DNA from: a virus | Direction: 5' to 3' (one strand) | DNA length: 21,276 nucleotides | Virus record (IMG/VR): IMGVR_UViG_3300037319_000024 | Coordinates: 1 to 21,276 of that record | Shown here: piece by piece, positions 1 through 21,194 of the stretch | Layout of the letters: each line of letters starts with the position of its first letter | Position numbering within the stretch: position 1 is the stretch's first letter | The notes under the pieces: generated by a model | The model's database searches: none | Seen by the model: only the letters and a program-made list of their open reading frames with translations | Told to the model about the DNA's origin: nothing | Made by a program: the position numbers and the translations under genes

Positions 1-632
1 GGCGTCGATAGCACACCTAAATTACCCAAGAACTCAGACAGGACTACAGGTTCTGGCATAGCTACGCCAAAGAACTCTACAGGCAAGGCTGGCTCTTCTT
101 TGTAGTTGTGTGTGAACGGTACGCGTAGGACACGGACCACGTCTGCAGTGACCGAAGGGTCAGCGAGAAGGTCGTTATCCACACAGGCTTTCTTCAGTCG
201 CCCCGCTGCGTCAACCCACTCCACTGCCGAAACTGCTTCAGCCAAGGGCCAGTAGACATGTACGCCTCGGCCGCTGTTAACCATAAGAGGTTTAGGCAGG
301 GATAGTTCTTTACAGAAGGAACGTAGTGCGTCTACCGCCAGCTTCTGCGAAGGGTATTCCTTCAACGGGCCACAGTCCAAGTCGATGAATAGGGACTTCA
401 GCTCGTGTGCGTTTGGGCCTTTGCGCCCTGCGTCTTTCGTCGCCTCTTTGAATGTGCTCAAAGCGAAGTATACGTCAAACCCGTCTGCATCAAACTTCTG
501 AGATGCACGTTCAACTTCTTCTAGGGTGTCGTAAAACTTCTGTATGCGAGTGTTGTCTGCTTTGCGAGCGGCGAATACGCAGTAGTGTCCTGTACTACTA
601 AGTAAGCCCCCCAAAAAATCTAATGTGTTCAT
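1..632 (-). CDS. Archaeo-eukaryotic-type primase (AEP/PrimPol), C-terminus cut by window edge
   Basis: I translated this frame directly: it opens with ATG at 632 and stays open for 210 codons to base 1. It carries the AEP primase signature in order: LFIDLDCG at residues 81-88, with the DLD metal-binding motif at 84-86; SGRGVHVYW at 120-128, with the motif II histidine at 125; and RVLRVPFTHNYK at 167-178, matching the R-x-P-x-T-x-N-x-K motif of phage and plasmid bifunctional primases. By family knowledge it makes primers for phage DNA replication and may also polymerise DNA. A helicase domain could follow beyond the window; this cannot be seen. GGGAG lies 8 bases before the ATG. It is the last gene of the leftward cluster visible here and follows a hairpin-containing gap after the probable ssDNA-binding protein gene. 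Confidence 0.87.
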   Translation of the reverse strand, partial: MNTLDFLGGLLSSTGHYCVFAARKADNTRIQKFYDTLEEVERASQKFDADGFDVYFALSTFKEATKDAGRKGPNAHELKSLFIDLDCGPLKEYPSQKLAVDALRSFCKELSLPKPLMVNSGRGVHVYWPLAEAVSAVEWVDAAGRLKKACVDNDLLADPSVTADVVRVLRVPFTHNYKEEPALPVEFFGVAMPEPVVLSEFLGNLGVLST

Positions 633-653
633 TGCTGCTACTCCCAAAAATAT

Positions 654-2257: not shown

Positions 2258-2281
2258 TGGTTACTTATAGTAGTTAGTCAA
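2252..2281 (-). promoter_or_regulatory. Candidate internal leftward promoter for the 131-aa/HTH/SSB/primase genes
   Basis: On the minus strand a -35 box TTGACT (2276-2281) and a -10 box TATAAC (2252-2257) are separated by 18 bases. This is a fair sigma70 match in one of the few gaps of the cluster. The -35 lies across the helicase stop codon and inside a degenerate copy (2270-2284) of the dispersed palindrome. It could give the ssDNA-binding protein and primase extra expression. Confidence 0.5.
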
Positions 2282-3809
2282 GCGTTTCTTTGTATAAATC
2301 TATCATAGCGGAGTGTATGTTGATACGCTCGTCCAGCATTTTGTATATGCGTTTCTCTGCTTTGGAGCCTGCGATCTGGATTACCGTACATTTATGCTTC
2401 TGACCGGCACGGTGGATACGTGCGTTGGCTTGTAGGTATGTCTCCAGAGAAGAGGTTGGGCCCCACCACACAATCGTGTTGGCTGCAGTGAGGGTTACGC
2501 CGTGCGCCGCAGACTGCGGTTGGATCACTAGCACTCTAGGATCGGCTTCGTTTTGGAACTGCGCAAATATCTCTGTGCGTTTAGATGCAGGTACGTCTCC
2601 ACGTATAACCTCGGTCGTGATACCATCTTTGCGTAGCTTCCTCGTCAGCATGTCGATAGTGTGCCGAAACGGTACGAACACCAGAACTTTCTGGCTGCTC
2701 TCGTCGATAGTCTCTTTCAGTGCTTGGTAACGGTTCTTGATGTCGAACTCTATGGAGTCGCCGTCGTCGGTGTATACCGCCCCCGCACTTATTTGCAGTA
2801 GCTTGTTCATGTTGATCGCGGCGTTCACGGAAGTCACAGATTCACCGGCTACTTGCATGAGCATCTGCTTCTTCAACGTGTTGTAATACTTCTTCTGCTG
2901 CGCGGTCATTTCGACGAAGCGTTTGGTGTACACCATGTCGGGCAGGTCGAGACATTCTTCCTTCGTAAACCTAATCGCGGGCTGCAGTGCGAGGTGGACT
3001 GTATCCTTGGCGGTCTCTTTGGGTTTGTAGGTGAAGTGCGTAACTTTCTGCATCACCATGTCCCTCCATGCCCCGTAGAACCTCGGGACAGACAGCGGGT
3101 TGACCAACTTAGCCAAGCCATAAGCATCGACAGGGCTTTGTGCAGCGGGCGTACCCGTCATCATCCATAGCCAATCATCTTCTTTGATTAACTTGTTGAG
3201 GGTCTTCCATCGTTTCGTCTGCGCGTTCTTATAGTGGGTAGCTTCATCAACGATGAATAGATCAAACCCTCCTGCGGCAATCTCGTCTTGGACAACTTCT
3301 ACGCCGTCATAGTTGATGATTACGAACTCGGCACCGGAGTTGATGATCTTCTTGCGTTTCGCTTTGTCGCCGTGCGCAACGTCAACCGTGCGGTGCATTG
3401 CAAAGGAGAACAAGTCGTTGCGCCATGCGCTATCCATGATCGACAGGGGGCAGATAACCAGCACCCGTTTGACCTTGCCGATTTTTATCAGGTAGTCCGC
3501 TGCCCAGATAGAGGACGCAGTTTTACCCGTACCCTGTTCGTTAAAACAGAACGACTTCTTGTTGAGTGTAAGGAACGACGCGGTGTCCTTCTGGTGCTCG
3601 AACGGCTTATGCTGCCCCGTCCATCGGTACCGTTTTGTGATTGGTGACGGGGCAGTTATGTTTAACGACCTAAGCGATAGGACTTCGTCGAGCCCCCACT
3701 TAACTAGAACCTTGTTCATAGGTAGTTCCTTGCTATTGGGGATCATTGTTGTGATCTGCTTTGGGTTACGCACCCGCAGCATTATTGCTTTATCCTGCAA
3801 AATTTTCAT
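2274..3809 (-). CDS. SNF2-type superfamily 2 DNA helicase/ATPase
   Basis: The 511-residue protein has the full SF2/SNF2 motif series. Walker A is EQGTGKT (91-97). Motif Ia lies around VLVICPLSIM (117-125), the DEAH-box is VDEATHYKN (187-195) and motif III is TGTP (218-221). In the second RecA-like domain VIRGDVPASKR is followed by QSAAHGVTLTAANTIVWW and the arginine-finger motif QANARIHRAGQ. These phage proteins use ATP to translocate on duplex DNA and act in replication, repair or recombination. The start has GGAGAAC 3-6 bases upstream. Length is typical for short phage SNF2 helicases without extra domains. It sits between the nuclease genes and the small regulator genes. Confidence 0.92.
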   Translation of the reverse strand: MKILQDKAIMLRVRNPKQITTMIPNSKELPMNKVLVKWGLDEVLSLRSLNITAPSPITKRYRWTGQHKPFEHQKDTASFLTLNKKSFCFNEQGTGKTASSIWAADYLIKIGKVKRVLVICPLSIMDSAWRNDLFSFAMHRTVDVAHGDKAKRKKIINSGAEFVIINYDGVEVVQDEIAAGGFDLFIVDEATHYKNAQTKRWKTLNKLIKEDDWLWMMTGTPAAQSPVDAYGLAKLVNPLSVPRFYGAWRDMVMQKVTHFTYKPKETAKDTVHLALQPAIRFTKEECLDLPDMVYTKRFVEMTAQQKKYYNTLKKQMLMQVAGESVTSVNAAINMNKLLQISAGAVYTDDGDSIEFDIKNRYQALKETIDESSQKVLVFVPFRHTIDMLTRKLRKDGITTEVIRGDVPASKRTEIFAQFQNEADPRVLVIQPQSAAHGVTLTAANTIVWWGPTSSLETYLQANARIHRAGQKHKCTVIQIAGSKAEKRIYKMLDERINIHSAMIDLYKETLD

Positions 3810-4121: not shown

Positions 4122-4798
4122 CAGTTTGCTCCATTGTGGGGGCACTCGACCACTTGGCAATAGCGTTTGCATAGGCCCGAAGGTTTCGGGTTCCATACAT
4201 CCACTTCGAATGCTTTCTCCATCCTAGCATAATTAGCCAGCCATTTGCTCCATAAAGATTGCTGCAGGTCGGCTCCGTATTCGGCTTTGACTAGGCTTTT
4301 TGCGATGACGAACAACAACCCTGCATGTAGCTTGGTGACTTCGGGGTAGTGCTTGAAGATAGCCAGTGCCATCAACTCAAGTTGTCCTTTGTCCGCGTAC
4401 TTAGCAGACTTGCCCGTCTTGTAGTCGATTATCCAGCCCACTCCAGTATCTTTGTCTATGATTGCAAGATCGACGATCCCACGAAACCATACGTCTTTAG
4501 CAAAGAAACTGCAGGGTTCTAGGTCCGCGGTCAGACCCAGCTTCTGCTCGACAATCTTCTCACCCTGCTTATTGTTCAGGGAGTCTAGTGTTGGTTTGAT
4601 AAAGGCGAACTGCGCAGGGAGGGGAGTACCCTCTCCGATATAATCCTCACACGCCTTATGGAACTCGGTACCGTAGAGCATGGCAGTAGACTCTTTGTAC
4701 GGGTACTGCTTCAGAACCTTCTCATGGTAGAACTGTTTGGGGCACTGCTCAAAGGCTTTGATCCGGCTAAAAGACCATGGCGCTGCTTTAGGTGTCAT
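4121..4798 (-). CDS. PD-(D/E)XK nuclease of the Cas4/RecB type
   Basis: The 225-residue protein shows the RecB/Cas4 nuclease series: GTEFHKACEDY with H47, FRGIVDLAII with D110, WIIDYKTGK with D125 and K127, and the QLELMALAIF motif with Q139. One cysteine near the N-terminus (C19) and three near the C-terminus (C210, C214, C219) match the four-cysteine iron-sulfur arrangement of Cas4/AddB-type nucleases. Such phage enzymes act as exonucleases in recombination or end processing. The start overlaps the polymerase stop as ATGA. There are no CRISPR genes or array nearby, so a Cas4-like recombination exonuclease is the likely role. Confidence 0.88.
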   Translation of the reverse strand: MTPKAAPWSFSRIKAFEQCPKQFYHEKVLKQYPYKESTAMLYGTEFHKACEDYIGEGTPLPAQFAFIKPTLDSLNNKQGEKIVEQKLGLTADLEPCSFFAKDVWFRGIVDLAIIDKDTGVGWIIDYKTGKSAKYADKGQLELMALAIFKHYPEVTKLHAGLLFVIAKSLVKAEYGADLQQSLWSKWLANYARMEKAFEVDVWNPKPSGLCKRYCQVVECPHNGAN

Positions 4799-6621
4799 TC
4801 ACAATCTCCATATGATTTGCCCGTGCCACTCTCGCAATCGACGGGTAGGCCCTCGGCCCAGTCAGGTGTCCAACGCATGCAAGTCTCTACAAACGCTCGG
4901 GCTTCGGGTACCTCGGCGTCGGGAACACAGCATAGAATACTGTCGTGCACCGTCAACACTACTTGGTATTTCTTACCTATACGTAGCATCTGTTCACCTA
5001 TGATGCAACGGGCTATAGCTTGGCACACGTTCTCGATGATTTTACCGCCATACAAACGAGAGCGCATACGTCTGGTTTTGTATGTGTACTCGAACCCTTT
5101 GTCAGACTTTTCCCCACGCAACTCAGGGTAAAAGATACTCAGGCCATTCGGTACTATGAGTGCGGTGTTTTCGGCATCGACCGTGATGACCCCCTTCTTA
5201 CCAAACGACATGGCGCGACCCTCGGCCAAATTCTTCATCATGTTGTTGGCATCTCTCCAGACCGTATTGATCTTGAAGTTGGACTCTCGGTAGATAGAGA
5301 TAATCCGCTTCGCTTCCACCTCGGACACTGAGAACCCAAAGGACTGTAGCTGTAGGCCGAACTTCTCCCAACCCATGCCATAGCCAGCACCTAGAATAGT
5401 CGTCTTACCCACGAACCGCTGGTCTTTATTAACGTCCTCTACGGCTACGTTGTAGATGCTCGACGCCATGTACTTGTATACGTCCTCACCTCTGGTGAAC
5501 TGATCCACAAGATCGTCCTGCCCAGCGAACCATGCCAATACTCGTGCCTCAATTTGGGAGGAGTCGGCTTCGACAATGGTGTGCCCCTCGGGGGCAATGA
5601 TAGCTCTCTTCAGCTTCTTACCATTTTGCCCACGACTAGGCAGGTTTTGCAGGTTGATCTTATCCATGCCTCCCCACCGACCTGTATGCGCTGCGTAGTA
5701 TTTGATCGGCCCCGGGAGTAACCCACGTTTAGATATGCCTATGAACCTCTCCGTACGTGTTTCCTCTAGGGTGGACTTGTTCCCTAGACGTGCTGCTACC
5801 AGCGTCTGTACACGGTCGTCCTCGTGCTCTTGTAACGCCTTGAACTCTGTATCAGTTTTGGCAAACGCGAACGTCTCCTTGCCTGTTGTGGCACTAATCT
5901 TCATGGGGGGCACCACGCCAAGCTCCAGTAGCATACCGGCGAACTTGGGGTTGGACATCAGGTCTTTCTTGTCCTCTACCCCTGCTTCCATGAGCAACTT
6001 GTCCTTGCGGTCACGTGTGTCTTCGAGGTGCTGCTCCAATAGGCCAATGTCCAGATCAAGCACAGGGTGGATGAACATGCTCAATGTTGCATGGATTAGC
6101 TTCAACTCTTGTCGTGGGAACTTAGCCCCCATGATCTTGAACAGTTGATACGTCAACTCTACATCTTGGATGCAATACTCCCCGTATTTCTTGGCCTCTT
6201 CTGCAGTGAAATCGGCGGGGCGTTTACCCTTAGCGGCGAGTACCTCAAACCCCTTCTTGCCAATACCGTACCGTTCAGACAAGGCTCTAAGGGACGCAGG
6301 TTGGTCCACTCCGTGCAAAGCTCTACCCATGCACATCGTATCGAACCACACCTTTGGTTTGACACCGTACAGCCAGCTTAGGATAGCCCCGTCGAACATT
6401 GTATTCTGCGCAACGATACCTGCATTAGAGAAGTCGATGCGCTCCAGCAGTGCTTTTATCTGGTCTGGGTCATTCGTGTACTTCGTAGACTTGTCGTTCT
6501 TCTTGACGGCGAGTCCGATAACTTCGAAGCGCGGATCACGTACATAAGCCTCTGTTGTCATCTTACTCAGGGAGAACTCCTGATCGTAATAGGTCTCGAA
6601 ATCTAGGGTGTATATGTCCAT
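4795..6621 (-). CDS. polA: Family A DNA polymerase with 3'-5' exonuclease domain
   Basis: The 608-residue replicative polymerase has an N-terminal DnaQ-like proofreading domain: DFE at 7-9 (Exo I), NTMFD at 73-77 (Exo II) and YCIQD at 149-153 (Exo III). The polymerase domain follows with TGRWGG (313-318), motif A DSSQIEAR (353-360), motif B with R402, K406 and Y414, and motif C HDS (559-561). The E. coli Phe762 position is Leu410. There is no 5' nuclease domain, as is normal for phage replicases, and none of the DnaJ-type zinc insertion reported in phage HMO-2011. The start overlaps the stop of the HTH gene as TAATG. It copies the phage genome with the helicase, primase and ssDNA-binding protein encoded downstream. 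Confidence 0.96.
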   Translation of the reverse strand: MDIYTLDFETYYDQEFSLSKMTTEAYVRDPRFEVIGLAVKKNDKSTKYTNDPDQIKALLERIDFSNAGIVAQNTMFDGAILSWLYGVKPKVWFDTMCMGRALHGVDQPASLRALSERYGIGKKGFEVLAAKGKRPADFTAEEAKKYGEYCIQDVELTYQLFKIMGAKFPRQELKLIHATLSMFIHPVLDLDIGLLEQHLEDTRDRKDKLLMEAGVEDKKDLMSNPKFAGMLLELGVVPPMKISATTGKETFAFAKTDTEFKALQEHEDDRVQTLVAARLGNKSTLEETRTERFIGISKRGLLPGPIKYYAAHTGRWGGMDKINLQNLPSRGQNGKKLKRAIIAPEGHTIVEADSSQIEARVLAWFAGQDDLVDQFTRGEDVYKYMASSIYNVAVEDVNKDQRFVGKTTILGAGYGMGWEKFGLQLQSFGFSVSEVEAKRIISIYRESNFKINTVWRDANNMMKNLAEGRAMSFGKKGVITVDAENTALIVPNGLSIFYPELRGEKSDKGFEYTYKTRRMRSRLYGGKIIENVCQAIARCIIGEQMLRIGKKYQVVLTVHDSILCCVPDAEVPEARAFVETCMRWTPDWAEGLPVDCESGTGKSYGDCE

Positions 6622-15953: not shown

Positions 15954-17207
15954 TCACATCTCCCTTGATTTGATGTTCACAGTCACGCCCACGTCGGGCT
16001 TGGCACCTAGATTGTCCATGATGCACCACAACACAGGCATGCCCCATTGACCCCAGCCACCGTATAGGTGCCCATCTGTCAGCACGATTGCCGCTTGCGC
16101 GTTGATGTTGTTATCCCGAATGTAATCGGTAACGCAGGTAACGTCTGTGCCGCCGCCGCCTTCTGGTTTGGTAGACTGCGCAAGGTCATCGAGTTCGTGC
16201 TTGTCGTACTTCTCGTCACGACATACCGCGGTGTCCCAATACAATAGACGTACGCCGTCGGGGTGTACCGTATCACATATCTCTTTGACCTCGGTGAGGA
16301 ACGCAGACAGTTCTCGCTGTCCGATCGAGCCTGACGTGTCGATTGCCAATACCAGTTCCCCGACTTGCTCACTGATACCGCTTGGCATGTATAGGCCAGA
16401 GGACAAGTACCTGCGGTTGGGGCGGCGGTATGTAGAGTAGTCGCTACCTGCACACGTGGACGTGACAAACTCTCGTAGGGTCTCGCGCCAGTTGATCTGC
16501 GGCTGGAGTAGTTCGTGTAGGTCGCGATCACCGCCGCTACCCATCTTACCTGCAGCAAGTGCGCCTTGGCGTATTGCCTCGTCGAGTTCTCGTGCGAGTC
16601 CCCGTTGTTCCTCGGCGGTGAGTTCCTGTGCACCATCCCAATCGTGTTCATCGAACGGCTGCTGTCCGTTCTGTAGTGAGCCACTACCCTGTCCGCTACC
16701 ACCACCTTCGCCGTCTTCGCCGTCACCCTGCTCAGAACCTTGATTGTCTTGGTCTTCACGCAGCAAGTAGTACACCTGTGCGCTGTCCATGCCAGCATAC
16801 TTGGTGTCGTAACATCCCCCTTCGAGTACGCCTGTCATAGTTGCGAAGCGATCCGCATTGTCGGCCACAATTTTGTGGTTGATAACGTAGTCACACGCCA
16901 TGTTCGCAAGATGTGCGTCCTGCTTGTATAGGTGTTGCCACGTAGTCAGGTGCCGGAACAGTTTGTGATACACCTCATGCAACACCAAGAACCTTAACTC
17001 GGCGTCGTTGAGTTGGTCTACAAACTCACGTCCGTACATCTCGTCGCAACCATTGGTACACGCGGTCGGTACGTTGGGGTCATCCACCACGTTGCGGTCC
17101 CCGATCATCAGTACCCCTGCGAGTGCCGTGTATTTCGGGTTCCCCATGATGGAGACAACGGCTTTCGTTAGCCGCTGCTCCTCGGTTAGTCGGTTTCGTA
17201 GTAACAT
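15954..17207 (-). CDS. Metallopeptidase-like/VWA-like protein (DUF2201 type), partner of MoxR ATPase
   Basis: The 417-residue protein has two domains. The N-terminal part has LHEVYHKLFRH with HEVYH at 77-81 and H86, then NMACDYVINH (102-111), as in the DUF2201 putative metallopeptidase domain. The C-terminal part is a VWA-like domain with the MIDAS motif DTSGS (290-294), GGGTD (351-355) and LTDGH (376-380). They are joined by an acidic, Gly/Ser/Gln-rich linker (151-185), within which a palindrome copy encodes GSGSL (174-178). By family knowledge such VWA proteins work with MoxR-type AAA+ ATPases in metal insertion or protein remodelling. The phage-side target is unknown. GGAGGAAC precedes the start. 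Confidence 0.9.
   Translation of the reverse strand: MLLRNRLTEEQRLTKAVVSIMGNPKYTALAGVLMIGDRNVVDDPNVPTACTNGCDEMYGREFVDQLNDAELRFLVLHEVYHKLFRHLTTWQHLYKQDAHLANMACDYVINHKIVADNADRFATMTGVLEGGCYDTKYAGMDSAQVYYLLREDQDNQGSEQGDGEDGEGGGSGQGSGSLQNGQQPFDEHDWDGAQELTAEEQRGLARELDEAIRQGALAAGKMGSGGDRDLHELLQPQINWRETLREFVTSTCAGSDYSTYRRPNRRYLSSGLYMPSGISEQVGELVLAIDTSGSIGQRELSAFLTEVKEICDTVHPDGVRLLYWDTAVCRDEKYDKHELDDLAQSTKPEGGGGTDVTCVTDYIRDNNINAQAAIVLTDGHLYGGWGQWGMPVLWCIMDNLGAKPDVGVTVNIKSREM
16673..16687. repeat. Dispersed palindrome copy 5 (GTAGTGAGCCACTAC)
   Basis: Inside the linker region of the VWA gene, read as GSGSL. Identical to copies 4 and 6. Confidence 0.88.
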
Positions 17208-17208
17208 C

Positions 17209-17520
17209 TTAGTTCCTCCACCACATCATCTGCTTCCACCACGTAGGTTTCGGCTTGTATTGTGGGGCTCTACCCAAGTTAAACGCAACGGAACCAACGT
17301 CGACGTCGGCGGGTGCGTCGTCTTCGTACACCGGAAGATCAATAGGTAGTGAGCCACTACCCTTCTTGGTCAAGTTCAATGCGAAGCTGCGGTTGTAGAT
17401 ACGGGTCACGGGTACGTCCATGATAGTAGAAATAATGTTCGGCCTTACGTTAGCCTCCCGCAGTTCTATAAGTCTCGCGTCCAATTCCTTGGTCCATTTG
17501 ATATTTTTACGTTTAGCCAT
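17209..17520 (-). CDS. Myb/GcrA-like HTH protein
   Basis: From ATG 17520 (AGGAGAAGACTA upstream; the frame opens to 17565 inside the previous gene) the product is 103 residues. The N-terminus (IKWTKELDARLIELREANVR, 7-26, then IISTIMDVPVTRIYNRSFAL) has the W-T-x-E-x-D...L...R...I spacing of Myb/SANT and GcrA-type DNA-binding domains. Next comes KKGSGSLP, where GSGSL (54-58) is encoded by a palindrome copy, then an acidic stretch and an aromatic end (TWWKQMMWWRN). It probably binds DNA and may link the module to transcription. Its tail could contact the VWA protein, a guess. Confidence 0.7.
   Translation of the reverse strand: MAKRKNIKWTKELDARLIELREANVRPNIISTIMDVPVTRIYNRSFALNLTKKGSGSLPIDLPVYEDDAPADVDVGSVAFNLGRAPQYKPKPTWWKQMMWWRN
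17346..17360. repeat. Dispersed palindrome copy 6 (GTAGTGAGCCACTAC)
   Basis: Inside the Myb/GcrA-like gene, read as GSGSL directly after the DNA-binding domain. Identical to copies 4 and 5. Confidence 0.88.
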
Positions 17521-17680
17521 TAGTCTTCTCCTCGTTTGCTGTGACAACTTCTGCGCTGCTTGCACCCACTGTGCTTTTGAAATCTACCTTGGCATGTTTC
17601 ATTGCCTCGGCTACGTTCTGGGCATCCACGCGCATCACGCGCTCGACCAGTCCTTCAACGGTTACATAATAGGTTTTCAT
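17513..17680 (-). CDS. Small unknown protein
   Basis: ATG 17680 is chosen because GGAGGAG lies 8 bases upstream and it overlaps the upstream stop as ATGA. The 55-residue protein starts MKTYYVTVEGLVERVMRVDA and continues NVAEAMKHAKVDF, a beta-beta-alpha layout typical of small phage proteins that begin with 'YxVxxxG...R.xVxAxxxxEA'. The tail (VGASSAEVVTANEEKTNG) is flexible. Function is unknown. Confidence 0.65.
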   Translation of the reverse strand: MKTYYVTVEGLVERVMRVDAQNVAEAMKHAKVDFKSTVGASSAEVVTANEEKTNG

Positions 17681-17856
17681 GTTATCGGCTCCTCCAGTTT
17701 GCCTAGCCACATGGCCATTTTATGAGCTTCCCTTGCGTCGGCATGGCTGCACTGTTTGGCTTTCATGTAACGGTCGATCCAATCATATCTGTCCCAACGG
17801 GGCTGTGCCGCCCGCGTTGCCTCTTTTATCCACCTGATGTCTTCGGCGTAGGCCAT
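17677..17856 (-). CDS. Small helical protein, unknown
   Basis: ATG 17856 overlaps the MoxR gene stop as TGATG (an in-frame GTG just before is also possible). The 59-residue protein is helical and Trp-rich (IRWIKEATRAAQPRWDRYDW), followed by DAREAHKMAMWLGKLEE. It lies between the ATPase and VWA genes, so it may be a small adaptor of that module. No family is recognised. Confidence 0.6.
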   Translation of the reverse strand: MAYAEDIRWIKEATRAAQPRWDRYDWIDRYMKAKQCSHADAREAHKMAMWLGKLEEPIT

Positions 17857-18950
17857 CACACCTTATCCGCTGTGTAGAGGTGTGTGTTCTTCATTGCCCA
17901 AGCGGTGAACTTCTTGTTGGTCATCACCATAGACTGCTTGGAATACTTCGGTGCTCTAACGCCGTTAGCGAACATGGCCTGTGCCTCAGTGTCGAGCCTC
18001 GGCAGGTAGTCCATCCACGCACTGAGCCATCCAGACTCCAGTGATGCGAGTGTCCGATACACCACCATACATACAGCTGCGGCGCTGGTCGGAACCTTGG
18101 CGTTCATCGGATCATCCTTGATAGACTGTAAGCTAGGCAGTTGGTCAGATAGTGCGACGAACGCCATCAAGTCCATTGCCCCACGATCACCGATTGTACC
18201 CATCAGGGCGGCGGTCAGTGTCACATCGTCGAAGTGTTCCCGTGTCTTGAGTATATCCGACGCTGCTTCGAGTGAGCGAGGTGTAACAAACGCAGCGCGT
18301 TGCTGCTTGGGGTGGAAGATGTAGGGGTTCTCGTTAGGGTCTTTGACGTCCTCGAACGATGCCATCAGGTGCGGGTTGTCTTTGACCCAGCCTAGCAAGC
18401 TGTGGTCTACCGCGTTGTTGATACCCCACTCGATCCAATCCATGTGGTCGGTCTTCTTGATCTGCACCACGGTCATACGGTTACGTGCGTGAGGTGGGAT
18501 CATATCACCCACACCTTCGGAACCCTTGTTCGTTGTCGCGAAGACAACACTGTCAGGGTGTAGTGTGTAACTACCAATTTTGCGTTCTAATATGAGACAA
18601 GTCAGGGCGGTCTTCACTGCGGGGTTCGCCTTACCAAACTCGTCGAGCATCAGAATGACGGGCCCCTCCAAGTGCATACCTAGTTCTTCGTGGGGGATCA
18701 TACGCACACAGCCGTCGCGTTCGATCGACTGCATGGACGGGATCATAATGTCGCCAAGGTCTTTGGTGGTCGCGTCGAAGTACACCTTCCTATGTGTGGG
18801 CAATTCGGCTCCCAGCATGTGTATCATGGACGACTTGCCGTTACCCATGTCACCTTGGGCGAGGATGGTACGTTTACTGCCCACCGCTTTGATTAGCGAT
18901 ACACATTGGTCGAGGCTCAGTGCGTACATTGCCTGTGCTTGATTGGTCAT
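17856..18950 (-). CDS. MoxR-type AAA+ ATPase
   Basis: The 364-residue protein has Walker A GDMGNGKSS (33-41), Walker B VILMLDEFGKA (98-108), sensor 1 ATTN (138-141), an arginine-finger region PPHARNRM (152-159) and a sensor-2-like TPRSLE further on. The pattern is that of MoxR/CobS-like AAA+ proteins, hexameric chaperones that act with VWA proteins. The VWA/metallopeptidase partner lies downstream at 15954-17207 and a DUF3150-like protein upstream, so a complete module is present. It is not accompanied by cobalamin genes, so phage-specific protein remodelling is likelier than cobalt chelation. The start follows CTGGAGAACAAC. Confidence 0.92.
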   Translation of the reverse strand: MTNQAQAMYALSLDQCVSLIKAVGSKRTILAQGDMGNGKSSMIHMLGAELPTHRKVYFDATTKDLGDIMIPSMQSIERDGCVRMIPHEELGMHLEGPVILMLDEFGKANPAVKTALTCLILERKIGSYTLHPDSVVFATTNKGSEGVGDMIPPHARNRMTVVQIKKTDHMDWIEWGINNAVDHSLLGWVKDNPHLMASFEDVKDPNENPYIFHPKQQRAAFVTPRSLEAASDILKTREHFDDVTLTAALMGTIGDRGAMDLMAFVALSDQLPSLQSIKDDPMNAKVPTSAAAVCMVVYRTLASLESGWLSAWMDYLPRLDTEAQAMFANGVRAPKYSKQSMVMTNKKFTAWAMKNTHLYTADKV

Positions 18951-18972
18951 GTTGTTCTCCAGTAGTTGTTTT

Positions 18973-18987
18973 GTAGTGAGTCACTAC
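18973..18987. repeat. Dispersed palindrome copy 7 (GTAGTGAGTCACTAC, perfect arms)
   Basis: Between the MoxR gene and the 54-residue gene. It supplies the latter's tandem stops TAG-TGA. The centre GAGTC is a GANTC site. Confidence 0.92.
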
Positions 18988-19148
18988 AGTTCAGTTGTTT
19001 CCGCAAGAAAGATATTACATAGGCGCTCGACAGCTTGGTCGGGGGTCACGCTCATGCCCAGCTCTTTCGACATTACGACACGTACTTCGTGTACGAGCTG
19101 CGATGTAGTCTTGAGTGGCTTGGCCAATTCGTTGTTAAAGATACCCAT
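18984..19148 (-). CDS. Small protein upstream of the MoxR gene, unknown
   Basis: ATG 19148 has AAGGAGG 5 bases upstream. The 54-residue protein (MGIFNNELAKPLKTTSQLVH ...) ends in a helical segment (TPDQAVERLCNIFLAETTEL). The stop is inside a palindrome copy. It lies between the DUF3150-like and MoxR genes; a small regulatory subunit is possible. No family is recognised. Confidence 0.65.
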   Translation of the reverse strand: MGIFNNELAKPLKTTSQLVHEVRVVMSKELGMSVTPDQAVERLCNIFLAETTEL

Positions 19149-19158
19149 GTTGTCCTCC

Positions 19159-20079
19159 TTACAGGTCCATTGTTGGTAGTGATTTGATCGCAGCATCTAC
19201 TGCGGCCTTGGTCGACGCACGGAACACATCGTCCGCACGTAACGCATCGGGGGTCACGCCAGACATCGCGGTCTCTAGGTTATTGGCCATCGCGGTCATC
19301 TGTGTAGAGTTACCCACGTTGCATACGCGCAACAGTTCGATCATGTCATTGACGTTGCCGACCAGTGTATCGCGGAAAACCTTGCGGTCTTCTTTGCTGC
19401 CATAGTCGAGCCGTTCGGACATGCTGTGCAGTGCCTTGTGTAGACGTTGCCACACGTCGTTCATCGCGTTGTTGAACTGCTTGCCGTAGAAGTCGGCGTA
19501 TGTATCACGCAGTTCACGCAGTGCGGTGTTGCCAATGTCCACTCGGAAGTCACCTGCATCTGGCAGCGGCATGAAGTTCATATGGAACGCAAACTTACGC
19601 ATGAGGCTCTCGGCGGTGGGGTAGTCTTCACGCAGGAACAAGTCACCCAGCTTGAGTTGTACGTCCACCACCTCGTCGTTGTACGATTTGAGGAAGTCAC
19701 CGACGAGCATCTCGAACTCGTTCTGCATGCGGGACATTGCGTAGGTGTATTTGCTGTGCTGCGCAGTTGGCAACAGACGCATACCTGAGTTGGACCACGG
19801 CATCGTCATGTTGATGTGCATGTTCCGTGTGGCTGTCACGTGCGTCTGTATCGCGCTCAGTGTATCGGAGTTGGCTAGGAGTTTCTTGTTGACGTTGGCC
19901 ACACCTTTGGCGGCGTGGTTGTCAGAGGTTACGGCTTCGGAGGCGCGTTTGTCTTTCTTGCGGCCAGCCCAGTTCGAGATACTTACCTCGACGAGCATAG
20001 CGGAGGACGACAGGGTTGGTGCTTCGGCTTGTAGTGAGTCACTACCTTGGTTCGGGATCATCTGAATTATAGTAGACAT
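19159..20079 (-). CDS. DUF3150-like protein of the MoxR-VWA module
   Basis: The 306-residue protein has VSISNWAGRKKDKRAS (32-47) near the N-terminus. A long, mostly helical body follows, with FEMLVGDFLKSYNDEVVDVQ and a FAFHMNFMPLPDAG segment. This order (a 'V-x-W-x-GR-K' start, helical bundle, then R/K-FxFxxxxxP) is what I associate with DUF3150 proteins that sit beside MoxR-type ATPases and VWA proteins in bacteria; the match is by recollection of the pattern. Residues 12-16 (GSDSL) come from a palindrome copy. The start follows AGGAGAATAAT. Its likely role is a scaffold or substrate adaptor for the ATPase. Confidence 0.65.
   Translation of the reverse strand: MSTIIQMIPNQGSDSLQAEAPTLSSSAMLVEVSISNWAGRKKDKRASEAVTSDNHAAKGVANVNKKLLANSDTLSAIQTHVTATRNMHINMTMPWSNSGMRLLPTAQHSKYTYAMSRMQNEFEMLVGDFLKSYNDEVVDVQLKLGDLFLREDYPTAESLMRKFAFHMNFMPLPDAGDFRVDIGNTALRELRDTYADFYGKQFNNAMNDVWQRLHKALHSMSERLDYGSKEDRKVFRDTLVGNVNDMIELLRVCNVGNSTQMTAMANNLETAMSGVTPDALRADDVFRASTKAAVDAAIKSLPTMDL
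20031..20045. repeat. Dispersed palindrome copy 8 (GTAGTGAGTCACTAC, perfect arms)
   Basis: Inside the 5' end of the DUF3150-like gene, about 35 bases after the start codon, read as GSDSL. The centre GAGTC is a GANTC site. Confidence 0.92.
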
Positions 20080-20587: not shown

Positions 20588-20602
20588 GTAGTGAGTCACT
20601 AC
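20588..20602. repeat. Dispersed palindrome copy 9 (GTAGTGAGTCACTAC, perfect arms)
   Basis: In the 5' leader of the leftward operon, about 70-80 bases after the main promoter and 24 bases before the first gene. The centre GAGTC is a GANTC site. This is the position expected of an operator or roadblock. Confidence 0.92.
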
Positions 20603-20672: not shown

Positions 20673-20701
20673 ATAATAGCAGGGTTCTTCACCAATGTCA
20701 A
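20673..20701 (-). promoter_or_regulatory. Strong leftward sigma70-type promoter of the whole cluster
   Basis: On the minus strand a consensus -35 TTGACA (20696-20701) and a -10 TATTAT (20673-20678) are separated by exactly 17 bases, and TGC before the -10 gives an extended -10. Transcription should start near 20,665 and enter the zinc-ribbon gene at 20564 after a leader of about 100 bases. No other promoter of this quality was seen on the minus strand, so most of the 44 genes probably depend on it. Confidence 0.85.
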
Positions 20702-20791: not shown

Positions 20792-20941
20792 TAATGTTCT
20801 CGTGCTACGGTAAAGTTCTTTAAGTATGGTGGTGTATGGTGGGTGTTAATTGGCTAAGTGTTTGATTACAAACGAATGTTCTGCGTGTTTTGTAATGTTC
20901 CGTGCTAAGTCATTGATATTACAGCAATGTTCTAATGTTCC
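20792..20941 (-). repeat. Iteron array, left half (TAATGTTCC orientation)
   Basis: Five copies of the 9-base element in the TAATGTTC(C/T) orientation or with one change lie at 20792-20800, 20874-20882, 20893-20901, 20925-20932 and 20933-20941; the last two are adjacent. They are the reverse complement of the right-half copies. The rest of the stretch holds no gene. Confidence 0.8.
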
Positions 20942-20969
20942 TCGAATCCCAGACAAGCGAGGGTTTTTT
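20940..20969 (+). terminator. Weak rho-independent terminator-like element, rightward
   Basis: CCTCG (20940-20944) and CGAGG (20958-20962) can pair around a 13-base loop, followed by a run of six T (20964-20969). The stem is short and the loop long, so this is tentative. It would stop transcription moving rightward into the right iteron half. Confidence 0.35.
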
Positions 20970-21039
20970 GAAAAGTTTAAAGGAAGGGTGGTATCGCATT
21001 AGAGGGGGGGTCGCATACGTAGAGCTATTATTTTTTAAA

Positions 21040-21141
21040 GGAACATTAGGAACATTAGGAACATTATAACTTTTTCAATAACTTACAGAGGGTCCAAAAA
21101 GAACTTCTTCGGAACATTAGGAACATTGCTGTGGAACATTA
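21040..21141 (+). repeat. Iteron array, right half (GGAACATTA orientation)
   Basis: Three exact tandem copies lie at 21040-21048, 21049-21057 and 21058-21066. A further pair is at 21111-21119 and 21120-21128 (the last ends in G), and one more at 21133-21141. An AT-rich tract (TATTATTTTTTAAAG) precedes the tandem triplet. Tandem iterons beside AT-rich DNA are typical of replication origins and of arrays bound by an initiator or regulator. Confidence 0.88.
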
Positions 21142-21179: not shown

Positions 21180-21194
21180 GTAGTGCCTCACTAC
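21180..21194. repeat. Dispersed palindrome copy 10 (GTAGTGCCTCACTAC)
   Basis: Intergenic, 12 bases before a possible rightward -35 box. Outer five-base arms are intact; the middle is GCCTC. Confidence 0.82.

Follow-up and report, generated by a model that had tools for sequence, protein, structure and literature searches.

Opposed sets of a two-part repeat form a probable replication origin in uncultured phages encoding a primase-DUF927 helicase

The window, that is the whole stretch of DNA analysed here, is a 21,276-base phage contig from IMG/VR; its minus strand holds nearly all plausible genes, and its right end carries an array of short repeats in a region free of genes. The genes that matter for the array are the following:

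3..647, minus strand: N-terminal ~210 residues of a PrimPol-DUF927 primase-helicase, the proposed initiator (the contig ends inside the gene)
1605-1835: small HTH_17/MerR-like protein
2274..3809, minus strand: SNF2-type helicase, replication module
4795..6621, minus strand: family A DNA polymerase (PolA), replication module

Additionally, a conserved early cassette of DUF3150, MoxR-type ATPase and VWA/DUF2201 metallopeptidase-like genes occupies 15954-20079, and Rfam and tRNA searches of the window returned nothing. The heptamer GAACATT occurs 15 times in the 21,276-base window and 11 of these copies fall within 20793-21140, five of them in the AATGTTC orientation on the left (20793, 20875, 20894, 20926, 20934) and six in the GAACATT orientation on the right (21041, 21050, 21059, 21112, 21121, 21134). 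The switch of orientation between left and right, claimed by an earlier sequence-only reading, holds without exception. That reading had also counted about eleven copies of a 9-base element, which is correct for the seven-base core, whereas the strict 9-mer GGAACATTA is present in the array as seven exact copies and two more with one mismatch. Across the whole window, 14 matches to the 9-mer were found at ≤1 mismatch compared with 3.9 expected, and none of 100 shuffles reached 14. The array comprises these features:

20792..20800, minus strand: outermost left iteron, TAATGTTCT on the plus strand
20855..20881, plus strand: bipartite unit A, TAAGTGTTTG-N10-AATGTTC, two mismatches to the family consensus
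20893..20901, minus strand: iteron, TAATGTTCC on the plus strand
20906..20941, plus strand: bipartite unit B, TAAGTCATTG-N10-AATGTTC (unit 20906-20932), then a tandem TAATGTTCC
20942..21025, no strand: central spacer between the two sets, with the block TACGTAYGCGACCCCCC..TAATGCGAT (on minus)
21026..21039, no strand: AT-only tract TATTATTTTTTAAA, candidate melting site
21040..21066, plus strand: perfect tandem triplet, GGAACATTA three times with a 9-bp period
21059..21085, minus strand: bipartite unit C, TAAGTTATTG-N10-AATGTTC, contiguous with the triplet
21111..21141, plus strand: right outer iterons GGAACATTA, GGAACATTG and GGAACATTA, starting at 21111, 21120 and 21133

Comparison of relatives showed that the heptamer is half of a larger element, the sequence-only reading having overlooked the other half-site, TAAGTYATTG, which shares its strand with AATGTTC. 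The repeats of that reading are real, but the 9-mer that it took as the element is only part of a bipartite site, which consists of TAAGTYATTG, ten bases and AATGTTC; one or two further copies of the latter often come next at a period of about 9 bp. The start-to-start distance of the half-sites is 20 in 42 of 44 units, about two helix turns, and both halves could share one face of the DNA. At ≤3 mismatches the window contains three units against 0.03 expected per shuffled window. Among 183 distinct units (≤2 mismatches) the half-sites hardly vary and the ten intervening bases are AT-rich, although these units were collected with the TAAGTYATTG/AATGTTC pattern and the half-site conservation is partly a product of that choice. 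The triplet lies beside an AT-rich tract, as had been described; the two adjoin and each is unique, the triplet being the only one of its kind in the window and the tract its sole AT-only run of ≥12 bp. The tract lies at the inner edge of one of the two opposed sets, and its shortness (14 bp) counts against an origin. In closer relatives an AT-rich tract likewise abuts the triplet, and much of the spacer block recurs.

The same opposed array is present in viral contigs related to the window through PolA and DUF3150. A less biased test was a search of 2.9 million viral contigs in IMG/VR with the 27-bp unit alone, which yielded at least 119 stretches. Among 79 newly fetched loci examined, the unit lay among ≥4 heptamers in 71, mostly in (-..+..) order, and 76 carry TerL, TerS, DUF3150, MoxR or VWA homologues of the window's phage family. 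The (-..+..) order was perfect in 81 of 114 distinct arrays, when about five would be expected with random orientation, and perfectly opposite in only two; one or two sites were out of order in 33, a point against the origin interpretation. In divergent members the layout is largely kept and the heptamer has changed (AATGTTA in G008, AAAGTTC in G007). As the heptamer varies, the strict window 9-mer undercounts the candidate origins of relatives. Absence of the array from close relatives with the same replication genes had been named as evidence against an origin; these relatives retain it.

In the relatives of about 60 kb the array stands between the packaging operon and the early operon. In the relatives mapped, one side of it holds TerS/TerL and a gene for a protein of ~180-200 aa transcribed toward the array, and the other side holds the early operon, in the order DUF3150, MoxR ATPase, VWA metallopeptidase, PolA, RecB-like nuclease, SNF2 helicase, HTH protein and 938-aa primase-helicase. 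terS and terL lie about 1.3-3.9 kb from the array in the genomes mapped, and repeat sites near terS are used for packaging by other phages, so we considered whether the array could be a pac or cosB-like site bound by the small terminase. If so, it would be expected in phages that share the terminase, and this is not what was found. The HTVC023P/HTVC027P-type pelagiphages and DSL-LC04 resemble the family in TerL (~46% identical) and genome size (~57-62 kb), with a DUF927 primase homologue undetected, and no unit or comparable array was seen in 25 kb around TerL in HTVC027P, DSL-LC04 and 023Pt, whose TerL is 46% identical and in which no DUF927 primase homologue was detectable, although a diverged site could escape such a search. 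Conversely, the Pseudomonas phage Rollin (OR577172) combines the replication module with an iteron array, and no match to the TerL, DUF3150, MoxR or VWA proteins of the window family was detectable in it. With both comparisons pointing away from the terminase, a role in packaging appears very improbable.

Rollin resembles the family in PolA (31% identity), SNF2 (38%) and primase-DUF927 (29-30%), and its intergenic array has a 9-bp triplet adjoining a tract of 96% AT. It differs in its heptamer, TTGCATA, in the absence of a recognisable TAAGTYATTG half and in a site order (+++---+-) that is not a simple mirror, part of the Rollin intergenic sequence being read as N. In the Rhizobium phage RHph_TM3_14A, whose primase is 25% identical, no array was present in the 41.9 of 60.9 kb read, a result that limits the generality of these findings. 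Similarly, none was found in the parts read of KPP25 and MinM2. A nucleotide search against named phages gave no match, and our literature search found no phage paper with DUF3150 and none describing the array. With respect to the host, the sole PolA match in bacterial genomes was an uninformative one of 26% in a Bacteroidetes MAG.

The candidate initiator is the 938-aa primase-helicase of the relatives, which contains DUF927, a helicase domain fused to primases (PMC5862659) and the family of Cch and SaPIbov1 Rep (PMC7581432). A DUF927 protein is encoded by all 15 large contigs searched, the window itself holding only the N-terminal primase part. Profile searches matched the protein to SaPIbov1 Rep (8tch, E 1e-19) and SCCmec Cch (5dgk, 3e-15), and the predicted model of residues 366-930 matched the folds of 8tch (Z 24.8) and 5dgk (Z 27.8), the alignment to 8tch extending through residue 927; the N-terminus matched the S-2L PrimPol domain (Z 19.6). 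As the rmsd is high (11-12 Å over long alignments), these fold matches hold at the level of domains. The predicted structure is usable for the N-terminal primase and for some of the helicase, and weak at about 300-375 and 640-660. The mixed prediction confidence of the C-terminal part, together with the presence of candidate HTH proteins, leaves room for a different initiator, a small HTH protein or a host factor that would recruit the primase-helicase to the origin in the manner of lambda O or plasmid Rep. We regard this as rather unlikely, considering that the helicase belongs with SaPI Rep and Cch in type, for which recognition of the origin by the C-terminal domain has been reported (SaPI Rep, on the iterons and apparently as two hexamers) or has been shown in the analogous Cch2 (PMC7581432).

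In this regard, the closest known systems are the PICI/SaPI replicons (SaPIbov1 rep-ori; E. coli PICI, PMC6092414; SCCmec Cch2 ori, PMC7581432), which likewise pair a DUF927-family initiator helicase with a primase and have short iterons in two sets, here 11 heptamers and three bipartite units. PICI origins have been reported always to have two iteron sets flanking an AT-rich region, and by analogy initiator loading from both sides may fit that arrangement (PMC6092414). The present system differs in belonging to a whole phage of ~60 kb with its own PolA and with the primase fused to the helicase, in its bipartite 27-bp unit with tandem 9-mers, and in the location of the array at the start of the early operon, at the opposite end from the primase gene, whereas the SaPI origin lies just downstream of rep (PMC7581432). 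Because the array is not next to rep and the binding is one that we infer, we do not class it as a PICI/SaPI origin, though it would work alike. Satellite phage P4 similarly has primase and helicase fused in one protein, alpha, and its ori and crr contain short iterons of either orientation, but alpha has been described with a different primase fold and helicase family, and the sequence and layout of the iterons differ.

Three features on the flanks of the array bear on transcription:

20588..20602, no strand: dispersed palindrome GTAGTGAGTCACTAC, flanking the array on the early-gene side
20673..20701, minus strand: sigma-70-like promoter TTGACA-17-TATTAT, directed into the early operon, its -10 preceded by TG
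21180..21194, no strand: dispersed palindrome GTAGTGCCTCACTAC, flanking the array on the other side

The adjoining promoter of the sequence-only reading is borne out as a promoter-like site, which lies some 90 bp past the left iteron. Relatives have a TTGACA promoter at the equivalent place, but the match in the window by itself is within chance, 1.4 such TTGACA-17-TATTAT-like sites being expected. Furthermore, the phage encodes HTH proteins and the array lies near the boundary of oppositely transcribed gene blocks. All this would agree with a regulator, for example the HTH_17/MerR-like protein or the initiator, that acts through the opposed sites as a repressor or activator of the early operon, with no need for an origin. 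Such a role is unlikely in our view, as the sites, which flank a conserved spacer and AT tract, extend over 350 bp, more than one promoter needs, as Rollin ties the layout of iterons plus AT tract to the replication module, and as the family apparently has a separate candidate regulator site in its dispersed, genome-specific palindromes. In the window this palindrome, GTAGTGNNNCACTAC (15 bp), is present in nine copies (3823, 8898, 11043, 16673, 17346, 18973, 20031, 20588 and 21180), both between genes and apparently within coding sequence, where its translation is GSDSL or GSGSL. In several relatives another palindrome, with TTAGTG, TTATAC, TATGGG or TCGGGC arms, is present in 7-11 copies, mostly around the array and within the early region. 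The palindromes appear to resemble a set of operators whose specificity changes between phages.

GC skew had been suggested as a check on the origin. The cumulative minimum does lie 1.2-2.7 kb from the array; however, in a gene-wise fit of 460 ORFs the replichore term was -0.012±0.008 against 0.038±0.009 for transcription, leaving no replichore effect once transcription direction had been fitted. As transcription direction explains the skew, it provides no independent support for an origin, and we rejected the placing of a bidirectional origin by strand composition, the switch in skew not being independent of transcription.

A replication origin, as the sequence-only reading proposed, is the best-supported interpretation, with the array kept in relatives that have the same replication genes, even though GC skew adds nothing to it. 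The same layout in more than 100 related phage sequences makes the region most likely the site at which copying by the phage primase-helicase starts, and we infer that it is probably an origin recognised by the PrimPol-DUF927 protein of the phage itself, from binding and two-set loading to the start of replication. The region would then serve a lytic-type phage of ~60 kb, with a fused initiator predicted to comprise an AEP primase domain, a DUF927 SaPIbov1-Rep-like helicase and a C-terminal region. This protein would recognise TAAGTYATTGA-N9-AATGTTC and the further tandem TAATGTTCC in two sets of opposite direction; helicase rings would form on each set, open the AT tract beside the triplet and travel away from each other, with the primase domain priming synthesis and the phage PolA extending it. 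The chances seem even that this is an undescribed class of origin, in phages for which the phage collection searched contains no close cultured relative. In this class, a two-part site spanning two helical turns (TAAGTYATTGA plus AATGTTC) and arranged in opposed sets would be read by a fused PrimPol-DUF927 initiator, SaPI-type initiation would support an entire phage that has its own PolA, and the heptamer would turn over (AATGTTC, AATGTTA, AAAGTTC, perhaps TTGCATA) with the layout kept. This interpretation provides a sequence signature for the candidate origin of a large group of uncultured metagenome phages, names a candidate initiator protein and would connect the way in which staphylococcal islands start replication (SaPI Rep, SCCmec Cch) with the copying of entire phage genomes. 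Moreover, more than 100 natural arrays and variant heptamers would allow the specificity of initiator sites and the loading of double rings to be analysed with a phage protein that is self-contained.

Two observations concern the terminase side of the array. One tested member (G005) of the ~180-200-aa proteins encoded beside it (e.g. G002:C1:31745-32275) had no Pfam match, and these proteins diverge rapidly among relatives. In addition, L014, L018, L020, L040, L038, L059 and L088 share a conserved stretch, CCAGTTCTCTAAGCAGC..GCG, beyond the array toward the terminase genes; it was not seen in the window, the contig of which stops at that point.
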